From NCBI RefSeq assembly GCF_030944405.1, contig NZ_CP132339.1:6651145-6715144 (forward strand): a stretch of 64,000 nucleotides of DNA, written 5' to 3'. The position numbers and the translations under genes were made by a program. The DNA is from Janthinobacterium sp. J1-1. Its GTDB lineage: Bacteria > Pseudomonadota > Gammaproteobacteria > Burkholderiales > Burkholderiaceae_D. Below, in pieces: positions 733 to 4,060 of this stretch. A model generated the notes under the pieces. That model worked only from the letters and a program-made list of their open reading frames with translations. It was not told the DNA's origin and did no database searches. Each line of letters opens with the position of its first letter. The first letter of the stretch is position 1.

Positions 733-803
733 ACTATGCATCAAGCGCAATATGTATGGCAAATACCATTTTTCTTGCGCATTTATACAAAAGATATATA
801 AAT
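733..803 (-). promoter_or_regulatory. Phosphorylase promoter with upstream inverted-repeat operator (LysR-type site)
   Basis: Read on the minus strand, an ATTTATAT-like inverted repeat (781-803, arms of 8 with 7 between, one mismatch) precedes GTATTTGCCATACATA (751-766). The latter contains a -35 TTGCCA (757-762), and an 18-bp spacer leads to a -10-like CATAGT (733-738). The repeat is centred about 65 bases before the predicted start of transcription, the usual place for a LysR-type recognition site. The same arrangement recurs at 3990-4060 in front of the transporter operon. The predicted leader is about 120 nt. Confidence 0.7.
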
Positions 804-859
804 GGCCGGCATTATAAAGCAGCGGGCCCGGCCCTGCCAGCAATGGGGGCAGACTGCGA

Positions 860-888
860 TTGACAGCCTTAAAACAAAAGTTTAATCT
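860..888 (+). promoter_or_regulatory. Predicted promoter of the pseudouridine kinase gene
   Basis: A perfect -35 TTGACA (860-865), a 17-bp spacer and a -10-like TAATCT (883-888). Transcription would begin near 895, downstream of the in-frame TTG at 888 and upstream of the GTG at 918, so it argues for the GTG as translation start. Confidence 0.5.
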
Positions 889-917
889 TGCGGACAATTG
901 TTTATTCCAGGCCCGCC

Positions 918-2051
918 GTGACCGACCTTTCCAAAAAAGACCAGCTGTATGCGCTGATACGCAGCAATCCCTTTATTTCGCAGCAGGAACTGGCGACCGA
1001 ACTGGGTTTGTCCCGTTCGGCCGTGGCCGGCCATATCGCCGGCCTGATCCGCGAACGCCGCCTGCTGGGCCGCGCCTATGTGCTGCCCGACAGCCGGCCC
1101 GTGCTGTGCCTGGGCGCCGCCAACCTGGACCGCAAGATGCGCACCCTGGCCGCCTTGCAGATGGGCACCTCGAACCCTGTGCGCTCGACCGAGGTATTTG
1201 GCGGCGTGGGCCGCAATATCGCGGAAAACCTGGCCCGCTTGGGCTTGCCGGTGGCACTGTTGACAGCGCTGGGCGACGATGCGGCCGGCCACGCGCTGCA
1301 AACCCATGCGGAAGACGCCGGCATCGACATGCGCGGCAGCTTGCACCTGGCCAATACCGGCAGCGGCACTTATACGGCCGTGCTCGACGAACACGGCGAA
1401 ATGCTGCTGGCGATGGCCAATATGCAGCTGTATGAACAGCTGACGCCGGCCTTTCTGCACAGCCGCCAGCCGCAGCGCGCGCAAGCGGCGCTGACCGTCT
1501 GCGACCTGAATCTTGGCATGGAGAGCGTGGCCTTTCTGCTGGACGAAGCAAGGGCGGCCGAGGAGAACGCCGCACCGCTGGTGATCGTGGCCGTCTCGCA
1601 GCCGAAGATGGCGCACCTGCCGCAAGACCTGGCGGGCTTGCAGCTGCTGATCCTGAACCGTGGCGAGCTGGAAACGCGTGTCGCGCGCGCCCTGCCGACC
1701 GACGAGGCGCTGCGTGATGCCTGCCACGAAGTGCTGCGCCAGGGTGTGCGCCAGTTGATCGTCACGCTGGGCGCACACGGCGTGTTGTTCAGCGATGGCG
1801 CAGGAGCGGACGCAAGCATGGCCCACCTGCCCGCCCTGGCCGTCGACGCGATCGATGTCACCGGCGCCGGCGACGCCTTTTCCGCCGCCGTCTGCTGGTC
1901 GCTGTATCACGACAGCAATGATTTACGACTGGCATGCCGGCGCGGCCTGAAGCTGGCCGCCATGACCCTGGCCTCCAGCGCCACCGTGTCAACCCTGATT
2001 TCCGCCAGCGTCCTCGACGATATCGAAGACGGCCCTATTCCCCTTGATTGA
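918..2051 (+). CDS. psuK: Pseudouridine kinase (PfkB family) with N-terminal winged-helix domain
   Basis: Phosphorylates pseudouridine to pseudouridine 5'-phosphate, the step before PsuG. Residues 1-50 form a winged-helix DNA-binding domain ([19 protein letters not shown]); a PfkB/ribokinase fold follows. The fold shows the GGVGRN motif typical of the N-terminal PfkB signature and the C-terminal catalytic DVTGAGDAF anion hole with its Asp base. GTG at 918 is preferred because the predicted promoter leaves the upstream TTG (888) untranscribed. The ribosome site is weak. The next gene, psuG, begins 13 bases after the stop, a classic psuK-psuG pair. The HTH fusion suggests the kinase may also regulate, which is inference. 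Confidence 0.88.
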
Positions 2052-2064
2052 CAGGATAAACAGC

Positions 2065-2994
2065 ATGACCCAACTACATCACTCCCTTTTGTTCTCGCAA
2101 GAAGTGCTGGACGCGCGCGCGGCCGGCAAGGCCATCGTGGCGCTGGAATCGACCATCATTTCGCACGGCATGCCGTATCCGCAAAACGTGGAGATGGCGC
2201 GCGAAGTGGAACAAATCATCCGTGACGGCGGCGCCGTGCCGGCCACCATCGCCATTATCGACGGCAGGATCTGCATCGGCTTGTCGCCCGAGCAGCTGGA
2301 ACTGCTGGGCACCTCGCCCGACGCCATGAAGGTCAGCCGCCGCGACCTGCCGTTCGTGCTGTCGCAAAAGAAACTCGGCGCCACCACGGTGGCCGCCACC
2401 ATGATCTGCGCCGAGCTGGCCGGCATCAGTGTGTTTGTGACCGGCGGCATCGGCGGCGTGCACCGCGGCGCGGAAACCAGCTTCGATATTTCGGCCGACC
2501 TGCAGGAACTGGCGCAGACCTCGGTGGCGGTGGTGTGCGCCGGCGTGAAATCGATCCTCGATATCGGCCTGACCCTGGAATACCTGGAAACCCATGGCGT
2601 GCCCGTCATCAGCGTGGGCCAGGAAGGCTTTCCCGCCTTCTTTACGCGCGAAAGCGGCTTCCAGGCCGATTTCCGCCTCGACAGCGCCGGCGAGCAAGCG
2701 GCTTTTATTGCCACCAAATGGCAGCTGGGCTTGAAGGGCGGCGTGGTGGTCAGCAATCCGGTGCCGGCCGCGCAGGCAATGCCGAAGGAAGAAATCGACG
2801 CCATCACCACCCAGGCCCTGCAGGAAGCGGACGCCGGCGGCGTGACCGGCAAGCAGGTCACGCCGTTCCTGCTGTCGCGCATCAAGCAGCTGACCGATGG
2901 CCGCAGCCTGGCCACCAATATCGCGCTCGTCAAACACAATGCCCAGGTCGGCACCAAGCTCGCCATTGCCATGCAGGCGGTGCTGCCCCGATAA
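2065..2994 (+). CDS. psuG: Pseudouridine-5'-phosphate glycosidase
   Basis: Cleaves the C-C glycosidic bond of pseudouridine 5'-phosphate to uracil and ribose 5-phosphate. The 309-residue protein matches the family's usual size (about 310) and shows its conserved blocks: [17 protein letters not shown] near the N-terminus, [31 protein letters not shown], and TPFLL near the C-terminus. The ATG at 2065 is preceded by AGGA about 8 bases upstream. An in-frame upstream start at 2044 would overlap psuK and is less likely. It sits between psuK and the LysR gene on the same strand. Confidence 0.95.
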
Positions 2995-3011
2995 TAGGAC
3001 TGCTGTAAAGA

Positions 3012-3041
3012 AACGCGCAGGTGCCGACCGGCCCGCGCGTT
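3012..3041 (+). terminator. Hairpin between psuG and the LysR-type gene
   Basis: AACGCGC (3012-3018) pairs with GCGCGTT (3035-3041) around a GC-rich loop. Only a short mixed T tract follows, so it is a weak terminator or mRNA-stabilising stem separating psuG from the regulator gene. Confidence 0.35.
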
Positions 3042-3075
3042 GTTCCCTCCAGGCATCACGCACGCCAAGGAAAGC

Positions 3076-3978
3076 ATGTCCATCGATCTGAAACAGTTAA
3101 AGTATTTTCTCGCCGTCGCCGAGGAGAAAAGCTTCAGCCGCGCAGCCGAGCGCCTGCATATCTCGCAGCCGCCCTTGAGCCAGCAGATCATGAAACTGGA
3201 AAACGAACTGGGCGTGCGCCTGTTTGCGCGCACCACCCGCACCTTCGAACTGACGGTGGCGGGCAAGGCCCTGATGCACGAGGCGGCCGACCTGCTGGGG
3301 AAGATGCGCATGACCATCGATACCATCCGCCAGATCGACCGTGGCGAAGTGGGCCGCTTGCGGGTCGGCATCGTCGGCTCGGCCATGTGGGGCCCGATCC
3401 CCAGCCTGCTGGAACAATTCCAGTCCAAATTTCCCCGCGTTACCTGGACCATCCATGAACTGGGGCCGACGGTGCAATACGAAGCGCTGCGCAGCAAGCA
3501 GATCGACGTCGGCTTCTGGCGCGAACCCAAGCTCAACGACGATGACCTGCGCCACGACAATCTGCGCCAGGAACTGTGCTTCCGTGAAAATGTCTGCGTG
3601 GCCGTCAACGAACACCACCGGCTGGCCAAGAGCGCGTCCATCGAACTGATCGATATCGCCGACGAACCGATGCTGAGCCTGGCGCTGGACAAGTCCGCCT
3701 TTCCCCGCTACCTGGTGCAATGCTGCGTCAATGCCGGCTTCGAGCCGATGATTTTCCAGGAAGCCAACGAACCGCAAACCCTGTTGGCCATGGTGGGCGT
3801 CGGCCTGGGCGTGACCCTGGTGCCGGAAACCACCAGCCGCATCGGCTGGCCCGGCGTGGTGTTCCTGCCGATCAAGACCAATCCGCCATCGGCCAATCTG
3901 TATATCAGCTACACCACGCTCGACGACGCGCCCGTGGTACGCGCCTTTCTGAATATCCTCAACCCGCCGGCCGCCTGA
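3076..3978 (+). CDS. LysR-family transcriptional regulator of the nucleoside cluster
   Basis: A 300-residue LysR-type regulator. The N-terminal winged helix (about residues 5-65) shows the typical LKQLKYFLAVAEEKSFSRAA and ISQPPLSQQI segments, followed by a periplasmic-binding-protein-like effector domain. The ATG at 3076 has AAGGAAAG directly upstream. It lies between psuG and the BMP transporter. An inverted repeat with the T-N11-A geometry of LysR sites begins 12 bases after its stop and recurs before the nucleoside phosphorylase gene. It is therefore the best candidate to activate both promoters, perhaps in response to a nucleoside or base; the effector is not visible in the sequence. Confidence 0.9.
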   Translation: MSIDLKQLKYFLAVAEEKSFSRAAERLHISQPPLSQQIMKLENELGVRLFARTTRTFELTVAGKALMHEAADLLGKMRMTIDTIRQIDRGEVGRLRVGIVGSAMWGPIPSLLEQFQSKFPRVTWTIHELGPTVQYEALRSKQIDVGFWREPKLNDDDLRHDNLRQELCFRENVCVAVNEHHRLAKSASIELIDIADEPMLSLALDKSAFPRYLVQCCVNAGFEPMIFQEANEPQTLLAMVGVGLGVTLVPETTSRIGWPGVVFLPIKTNPPSANLYISYTTLDDAPVVRAFLNILNPPAA

Positions 3979-3989
3979 TGTTGCCTTGG

Positions 3990-4060
3990 ATTTATATCCG
4001 ATACATATAAATCCATAAACAAAAACGTATTTGCCATACATATCGGCCATGATGCATAGT
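3990..4060 (+). promoter_or_regulatory. Transporter operon promoter with upstream inverted-repeat operator (LysR-type site)
   Basis: A perfect ATTTATAT-N7-ATATAAAT inverted repeat (3990-4012) is followed 14 bases later by GTATTTGCCATACATA (4027-4042), which holds the -35 TTGCCA (4031-4036). An 18-bp spacer leads to CATAGT (4055-4060) within TGATGCATAGTGG. Spacing and sequence match the module at 733-803 base for base over the core promoter parts. The predicted start is near 4067, giving a leader of nearly 200 nt before the binding-protein gene. That leader holds no riboswitch I recognise. Confidence 0.7.

Follow-up and report, generated by a model that had tools for sequence, protein, structure and literature searches.

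Two very similar sequence modules stand on either side of a gene for a LysR-type regulator in Janthinobacterium sp. J1-1, one before a purine nucleoside phosphorylase (PNP) gene and one before the genes of a nucleoside transporter. This raises the question of what the module is, and which protein acts on it. We analyzed a stretch of 64,000 nucleotides (contig NZ_CP132339.1, positions 6,651,145 to 6,715,144 of the forward strand; hereafter the window) together with related genomes. The 71-base module is very probably the landing site of the LysR, a relative of XapR, as an earlier sequence-only reading of the same DNA had suggested; comparison of sequences speaks for that interpretation. We consider it likely that the module serves as operator-promoter of a XapR-type activator that, in Janthinobacterium and its kin, would control the uptake and phosphorolysis of nucleosides and the breakdown of nucleic acids.

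Copies and anatomy of the module

Three copies were located in the window:

731..803, minus strand: copy 1, before the xapA-type PNP gene (read directly)
3990..4062, plus strand: copy 2, before the BMP-type ATP-binding cassette (ABC) nucleoside transporter genes (read directly)
17481..17550 (17550-17481), minus strand: copy 3, before a row of TonB receptor and nuclease genes

Direct reading confirmed the first two with the elements and spacings described before. In copy 1, the palindrome (803-781, ATTTATATATCTTTTGTATAAAT) is followed by an A-rich spacer (780-767), by GTATTTGCCATACATAT at 766-750 and, after 6 bp, by TGATGCATAGTGG at 743-731. Copy 2 is built alike, with the palindrome at 3990-4012 (ATTTATATCCGATACATATAAAT), a 14-bp spacer (4013-4026), the core (4027-4043), 6 bp and TGATGCATAGTGG at 4050-4062; the ends of TGATGCATAGTGG, 731 and 4062, lie two bases beyond the limits given earlier. 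The palindrome of each copy comprises 23 bp, ATTTATAT-N7-ATATAAAT. The repeat had been described as identical in both copies, which is true of the plus copy, but the right arm of the minus copy carries one mismatch (GTATAAAT for ATATAAAT). Together, copies 1 and 2 form two very similar 71-bp blocks, 3.2 kb apart.

Copy 3 had been missed and was exposed by a consensus scan of the fetched loci. Its spacing from the core to the right element is one base shorter than in copies 1 and 2, and a search with its pattern gave 1 match in the window compared with a mean of 0.03 in 100 shuffles. We also scored the window with a position weight matrix (PWM) trained on PNP and BMP copies, a set that includes copies 1 and 2 and leaves out copy 3. 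The three copies took the top three positions (93.6, 84.9 and 70.2 bits, respectively), copy 1 being the best match on its strand; the next listed score, -31.0 bits, is the palindrome of copy 3 read on the opposite strand.

When up to 3 mismatches were allowed, the right part of the module matched the window twice, both times with 0 mismatches, whereas 100 dinucleotide shuffles gave 0.00 matches on average. At the same tolerance, the 36-bp core matched the whole 6.95 Mb genome exactly at copies 1 and 2 (both with 0 mismatches), and the backwards control gave 0 matches. A fourth, weaker copy was found elsewhere in this genome (G000:C1:5173985-5173953, minus strand), where a weaker palindrome (12/16 positions) stands 14 bp before the core and the PWM score is 58.2 bits. 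GTATTTGCCATACATAT alone, again with up to 3 mismatches, had 7 matches in the genome, 2 of which are modules, and 4 in the backwards control; the next-best of these sites was checked (L329) and rejected as a further module for want of a palindrome.

From one family we gathered 173 distinct modules: 101 before PNP genes, 66 before BMP genes, one before an ABC gene, one before a psuG-type gene and 4 with no gene assigned, among them window copy 3. The 71 bp hold 101.8 bits in 100 PNP copies, versus 8.7 and 10.0 in the 60-bp flanks, and 97.6 bits in 59 BMP copies, versus 9.6 and 15.8, values that are inflated because a module had to match at least 38 of 52 consensus positions to be gathered. The interval after the repeat had been given as 14 bases; this length stands, but its sequence is constrained, with an A-rich stretch conserved over many copies (AAGAAAAA in PNP copies, AA..AAAA in BMP copies). 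The gaps within the palindrome and ahead of the right element vary among copies.

The conserved block stops near the predicted start, and this drop argues for a promoter acting at the DNA level over a leader RNA. A riboswitch or leader RNA was rejected on these grounds; an Rfam scan of positions 1-9000 returned no match above the gathering score, and one match at E 0.75. TTGCCA/TTGTCA and CATAGT, separated by 18 (sometimes 17) bp, would form a plausible sigma-70 pair in which the -10 hexamer is weak. The second conserved element, GTATTTGYC, contains TTGCCA/TTGTCA and overlies this predicted -35. As for the palindrome, the T-N11-A geometry claimed for it can be read inside ATTTATAT-N7-ATATAAAT, while its placement near -65 is counted from an inferred start; with CATAGT taken as -10, the center would lie at about -66. 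At the -10, TNATGCATAGT comprises 11 strongly conserved bases, most of them close to 2 bits in the PNP and BMP copies, and it is conserved also in the copies before TonB receptor and response-regulator genes described below.

In classical LysR two-site promoters, a recognition site lies near -65 and an activation site at -35. The module resembles these in its T-N11-A palindrome and in the second conserved element over the -35, but differs from them in its unusually long fixed sequence, which extends from the palindrome through the -10.

Co-occurrence with the LysR and identity of the proposed regulator

The strict core was present in 84 of 294 genomes of the family (6 of 44 genera), and an orthologue of the LysR (E 1e-80 or better) in 101 of the same genomes. 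Both occurred together in 83 genomes, the core alone in 1, the LysR alone in 18 and neither in 192 (Fisher p 6e-54, a value that ignores kinship). Among the 193 genomes that lack the LysR, the single one with a strict core (G184) has its module at a contig end (L039). The module was not found to be absent where the regulator is conserved, as 83 of the 101 LysR genomes have the strict core and the other 18 carry what read as degenerate modules. The independent test of these 18 was a consensus scan of their LysR regions, with the consensus taken from other loci, and not the PWM: 17 score 37 to 49 of 52 positions, and G222 scores 33. G222 is weak at the LysR locus, but has a 78.5-bit copy before BMP genes elsewhere. 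The best PWM score per genome ranged from 36.8 to 87.6 bits in the 18, on some of which the PWM was trained.

Outside the family, the core was absent from the genomes of the order (0/386), and at E 1e-70 the LysR was found in 6 of 399 genomes of a wider sample, all of them family members. A scan of named genomes gave at least 120 stretches; the 80 matches listed come from Janthinobacterium, Massilia, Duganella, Pseudoduganella, Rugamonas and Telluria, and also from records labelled Oxalobacteraceae, Burkholderiaceae or Pseudomonadota bacterium. In 37 of 38 LysR-bearing loci a PNP gene lies in the same fetched stretch (L110 is without one). In a genome of a diverged genus (G019), one module stands between a divergent LysR gene and an ABC-permease-permease-PNP row, and a second precedes BMP-BMP-ABC-permease genes (L356). 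The LysR is taken as the probable binder because of this position beside the divergent LysR gene, and because the layout is shared with the XapR-controlled xapA (see below).

The genes around the three copies in the window are as follows:

1..603, minus strand: PNP of the xapA type, running off the window start, downstream of copy 1
918..2051, plus strand: PfkB kinase with an N-terminal helix-turn-helix (HTH, PF13412), psuK-like, divergent from the PNP gene
2065..2994, plus strand: pseudouridine-5'-phosphate glycosidase type (Indigoidine_A, PF04227), presumably psuG
3076..3978, plus strand: LysR-type regulator, XapR relative (PF00126 2e-26, PF03466 1.6e-35), proposed binder of the module
4264..5259, plus strand: BMP-type substrate-binding protein (PF02608)
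5340..6869, plus strand: ABC transporter ATPase (PF00005)
6866..7945, plus strand: ABC permease 1 (PF02653)
7950..8921, plus strand: ABC permease 2 (PF02653)
10757..11827, minus strand: S1/P1 nuclease (PF02265)
11824..13044, minus strand: PLD-like protein (PF13091)
13061..14785, minus strand: 5'-nucleotidase (PF02872, PF00149)
14906..17266, minus strand: TonB-dependent receptor (PF00593, PF07715), first gene after copy 3

The window PNP has TIGR01699 (xanthosine phosphorylase XapA) as its best family, the fragment scoring below the cut-off, and is 70% identical to an E. coli XapA (tblastn). The psuK-like kinase does not reach the cut-offs of kinase equivalog models. The psuK-like, psuG-type and LysR genes all lie on the plus strand between copies 1 and 2, so that the LysR gene is indeed found where the sequence-only reading had put it; it stands in tandem between psuG and the BMP genes and is not divergent from a target; for LysR-type regulators, the divergent arrangement is common but not universal. 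Upstream of copy 3 are genes for adenosine deaminase, guanine deaminase and XdhC, for which the window scan gave no module of their own. Positions 10757-21722, from the S1/P1 nuclease through XdhC, make up an island of nucleic-acid and purine breakdown.

The window LysR carries both the HTH_1 and the LysR substrate-binding domain and shares 41% identity with E. coli XapR over 296 aa. With NF007439, the NCBIfam model of XapR (PRK09986), it scores 319.5 bits against a cut-off of 290; E. coli XapR, for which this is the best model, scores 531.4, a Vibrio tritonius LysR 267.1 and HcaR 178.3. By these scores the window LysR is classed as XapR-type and not PunR-type. When 274 genomes sampled evenly from the class were searched for XapR at E 1e-60, the genome of the window was the sole match. 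In Sinorhizobium meliloti, a LysR gene (L249 4504-5403) whose product shares 42% identity with the window LysR is transcribed divergently from a gene for (S)-ureidoglycine aminohydrolase, which suggests a sister group in purine catabolism.

PunR was tried as an identity and rejected, as the significant match to the E. coli protein is confined to 87 aa in the N-terminal region, at 38% identity. The PunR (YdhB)/punC system of E. coli, in the part of its description accessible to us, resembles the present one in having a LysR-type activator, a purine nucleoside transporter and a 23-bp palindromic site (PMC8376909). Its consensus as printed there, TsttwTCAAwAwwwTTGaaGGCA, is unlike the window's ATTTATAT-N7-ATATAAAT, and the best match to the left part of the PWM in the punR-punC stretch scored -25.1 bits.

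The xapA region of E. coli and rival explanations

In an alignment of the xapA upstream regions of E. coli and of a Salmonella plasmid copy, we read ATCGATA-N9-TATTGA(A/T), 14 bp ending in GAAAAGT, GTATTGG and, 18 bp after the hexamer equivalent to the -35, TATAAA. Beside it lies a mirror image, ATTAATA-N9-TATAAAT (CTAAAT in Salmonella) and CCAATAC, 14 bp apart. The intergenic region between xapA and yfeN thus holds two back-to-back mirror-image sites (E. coli L121 4880-5127; Salmonella counterpart L243 1833-2087). The comparison leaves aside the matches H2, H4 and H5 from an E. coli plasmid collection and an xapA-like Azospirillum stretch. We scored a 10.0-kb E. coli and a 5.6-kb Salmonella stretch with the left 46 columns of the PWM, which had been trained on Oxalobacteraceae sites. 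The best match on each strand fell exactly there (11.5 and -21.9 bits in E. coli, 15.4 and -6.8 in Salmonella), and for either species 0 of 2000 Markov random sequences attained the maximum of the region. A plain consensus count likewise put the xapA site first in the E. coli stretch, with 36/52 positions and 28 for the next.

The E. coli XapR/xapAB system shares with the window a LysR-type regulator, an xapA-type PNP and a nucleoside transporter as targets, and the layout palindrome-14-GTATTKG-18-hexamer. The differences are that the transporter is a BMP-type ABC system here and XapB in E. coli; that the TonB/nuclease row is an additional predicted target here; that the palindrome occurs twice, in mirror image, in the E. 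coli xapA-yfeN interval and once in each window promoter; that TNATGCATAGT belongs to the window modules and not to the E. coli site; and that the LysR gene here sits with psuK-psuG, unlike that of XapR. In the published part open to us, XapR is said to act on xapAB via two sites, one of them overlapping the -35 (PMC7205307), and the accessible text of a second study calls the E. coli XapR sites low-evidence and places the farther one outside a 160-bp mutagenized region (PMC7567609). According to the portion available of a third, xapR has repeatedly been co-transferred with xapA (PMC2395238).

Several observations weigh against the module being the operator of the XapR-type LysR. With the right element included, the scores fall to -6.9 bits in E. 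coli and -9.1 in Salmonella, because TNATGCATAGT is not shared there. The E. coli copy that faces xapA is the weak one (-21.9 bits, yet the best on its strand in 10 kb), while the strong copy faces yfeN, a gene that may for this reason be part of the XapR regulon. The second palindrome is only 25 bp away from the first and may be distinct from the farther published XapR site. Vibrio tritonius has a XapR-like LysR beside xapA and no recognizable module, and the motif was not found in the intergenic stretches beside XapR-like genes of V. tritonius, S. meliloti and Paraburkholderia PREW-6R (9 or 10 of 16 palindrome positions). In a 16-row tree, the Oxalobacteraceae sequences form a clade (100/97), but their place beside XapR is not resolved, and several branches are long. 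G184, the genome with a module and no LysR found, is 97% complete. Moreover, the LysR gene and the PNP module adjoin, so that their co-occurrence is partly co-inheritance. Finally, the conservation of TNATGCATAGT exceeds what a sigma-70 -10 requires and is the least explained feature of the module.

The linkage leaves room for another factor, for example the PfkB kinase with its HTH (918-2051) or a global regulator not linked to the locus, to bind the module while the LysR only travels with it. A psuK-like gene with the HTH domain PF13412 does lie between the PNP and LysR genes in the loci that hold both, the association of module and LysR is confounded by linkage, and HusR (YnfL) has been reported, in the accessible part of the source, to bind upstream of E. 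coli xapA (PMC12844172). We nevertheless regard such a factor as unlikely: in G019 there is no psuK/psuG match of at least 45% identity in 12 kb around the LysR and the module, the same layout occurs at E. coli xapA, where the annotation of the 10 kb fetched lists no psuK, and the HusR sites printed in that part of the source follow a different, 16-bp motif (PMC12844172).

The strong conservation of TNATGCATAGT over unrelated target genes could instead mean that an alternative sigma factor uses the right half (GTATTTGYC-N13/14-TNATGCATAGT) as its -35/-10 and defines the regulon, with the palindrome as an accessory site. The right half was searched in relaxed form (N13 spacing, at most 1 mismatch) and occurred in 47 of 251 family genomes, namely in the six LysR genera and once each in G207 and G032; these two core matches have no palindrome, were not accepted as modules and were taken as chance. 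The right half was thus not seen apart from the LysR genera save for these single matches, and E. coli has TATAAA at the equal distance, which makes a sigma-defined regulon very unlikely.

That the copies are young duplicates or products of gene conversion without regulatory meaning, as two near-alike 71-bp blocks 3.2 kb apart might suggest, is already contradicted: across 100 PNP and 59 BMP copies the fixed positions are kept even though the gaps (N7, N4, N6) and the 60-bp flanks differ, and the copies ahead of TonB rows and response regulators are at a distance of kilobases or more.

Further targets and the proposed regulon

For the XapR-type operator, the expectation of a small nucleoside-salvage regulon holds up as far as the PNP and BMP targets go, but the set is larger than these two, as the row behind copy 3 and the fourth genomic copy show. 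We fetched 40 regions around pattern matches, a choice among those listed. In 21 of them, from five genera, the module is followed by a TonB receptor gene and then by a 5'-nucleotidase gene; the S1/P1 nuclease gene is visible in 16 of these, and the other 5 stretches end short of its expected place. In four regions, a gene for a PhoB-type response regulator follows the module. Of these, L312, L314 and L318 come from the window's genus and L358 (62%) from a different one; L312 and L358 also carry a gene for a predicted Exo_endo_phos nuclease upstream of the regulator. Two regions (L356, L357) have the module before BMP genes. The copies before TonB, HD-GYP and response-regulator genes are not PWM training sites, but the N13 pattern was used to pick them, and the uniformity of their spacing partly reflects this selection.

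Nine regions, all from the window's genus, represent another locus (L311, L313, L315, L317, L319-L322, L325), at which the palindrome is shifted to ATTCA..TGAAT. An HD-GYP gene follows the module in 7 of them and not in L313 and L315; in L313 a chemotaxis-receptor gene lies tail-on after the module. On the opposite side of the module there is a divergent TonB receptor gene in L311 (confirmed by family) and L313 (read), which may be the true target at this locus. A link between nucleoside sensing and cyclic di-GMP through the HD-GYP gene is possible.

The remaining 4 regions (L323, L329, L364, L365) had no module. In L323, from a genome of the window's genus (G955), the PNP gene follows guaD and has no recognizable palindrome (-12.2 bits); GCATTTGCC...TGATGCATAGT stands upstream of it and is possibly a decayed module. 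G958 and G962 (88 and 82% complete) gave no match.

We propose that each module works as a single composite operator-promoter, in which the XapR-type LysR would occupy the 23-bp palindrome as a dimer, about 66 bp before the start, and a second dimer or arm would cover the A-rich spacer and GTATTTGYC with its -35 hexamer (TTGCCA/TTGTCA). Upon binding of a purine nucleoside or its product, the tetramer would recruit RNA polymerase to the weak -10 CATAGT, 17-18 bp away. By analogy with XapR, such a nucleoside-triggered tetramer bridging the palindrome and the -35-proximal element would be the most economical arrangement; binding, direction of activation, inducer and start sites are what we infer in this scheme. 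The PNP, the BMP-ABC transporter and the TonB/5'-nucleotidase/nuclease row would then be switched on together, as one inducible regulon leading from extracellular nucleic acid through nucleotides and imported nucleosides to free base and ribose-1-phosphate.

In a search mostly limited to openly readable literature, no published account of this operator in Oxalobacteraceae was found. The comparison gives good support to a predicted LysR regulon of the XapR type, whose operator is sharply defined and whose targets extend beyond the xapAB operon that the texts accessible to us give for XapR. Tentatively, and with somewhat less than even confidence, we suggest that the XapR-type regulator of Oxalobacteraceae is a master switch of nucleic-acid foraging that would act through a near-invariant composite operator on nucleases, 5'-nucleotidase, TonB receptors, ABC import and phosphorolysis; in Janthinobacterium it would also reach the HD-GYP/TonB locus and the PhoB-like regulator, coupling nucleoside sensing to signalling. 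An operator that can be read in 173 copies, with the same layout at xapA, offers a testable recognition code for the XapR group, and functions are suggested for a so far unnamed LysR group and for TonB receptors and nucleases. The bacteria concerned are common in soil and freshwater, and the predicted regulon would tie their breakdown of nucleic acids to the import of nucleosides.

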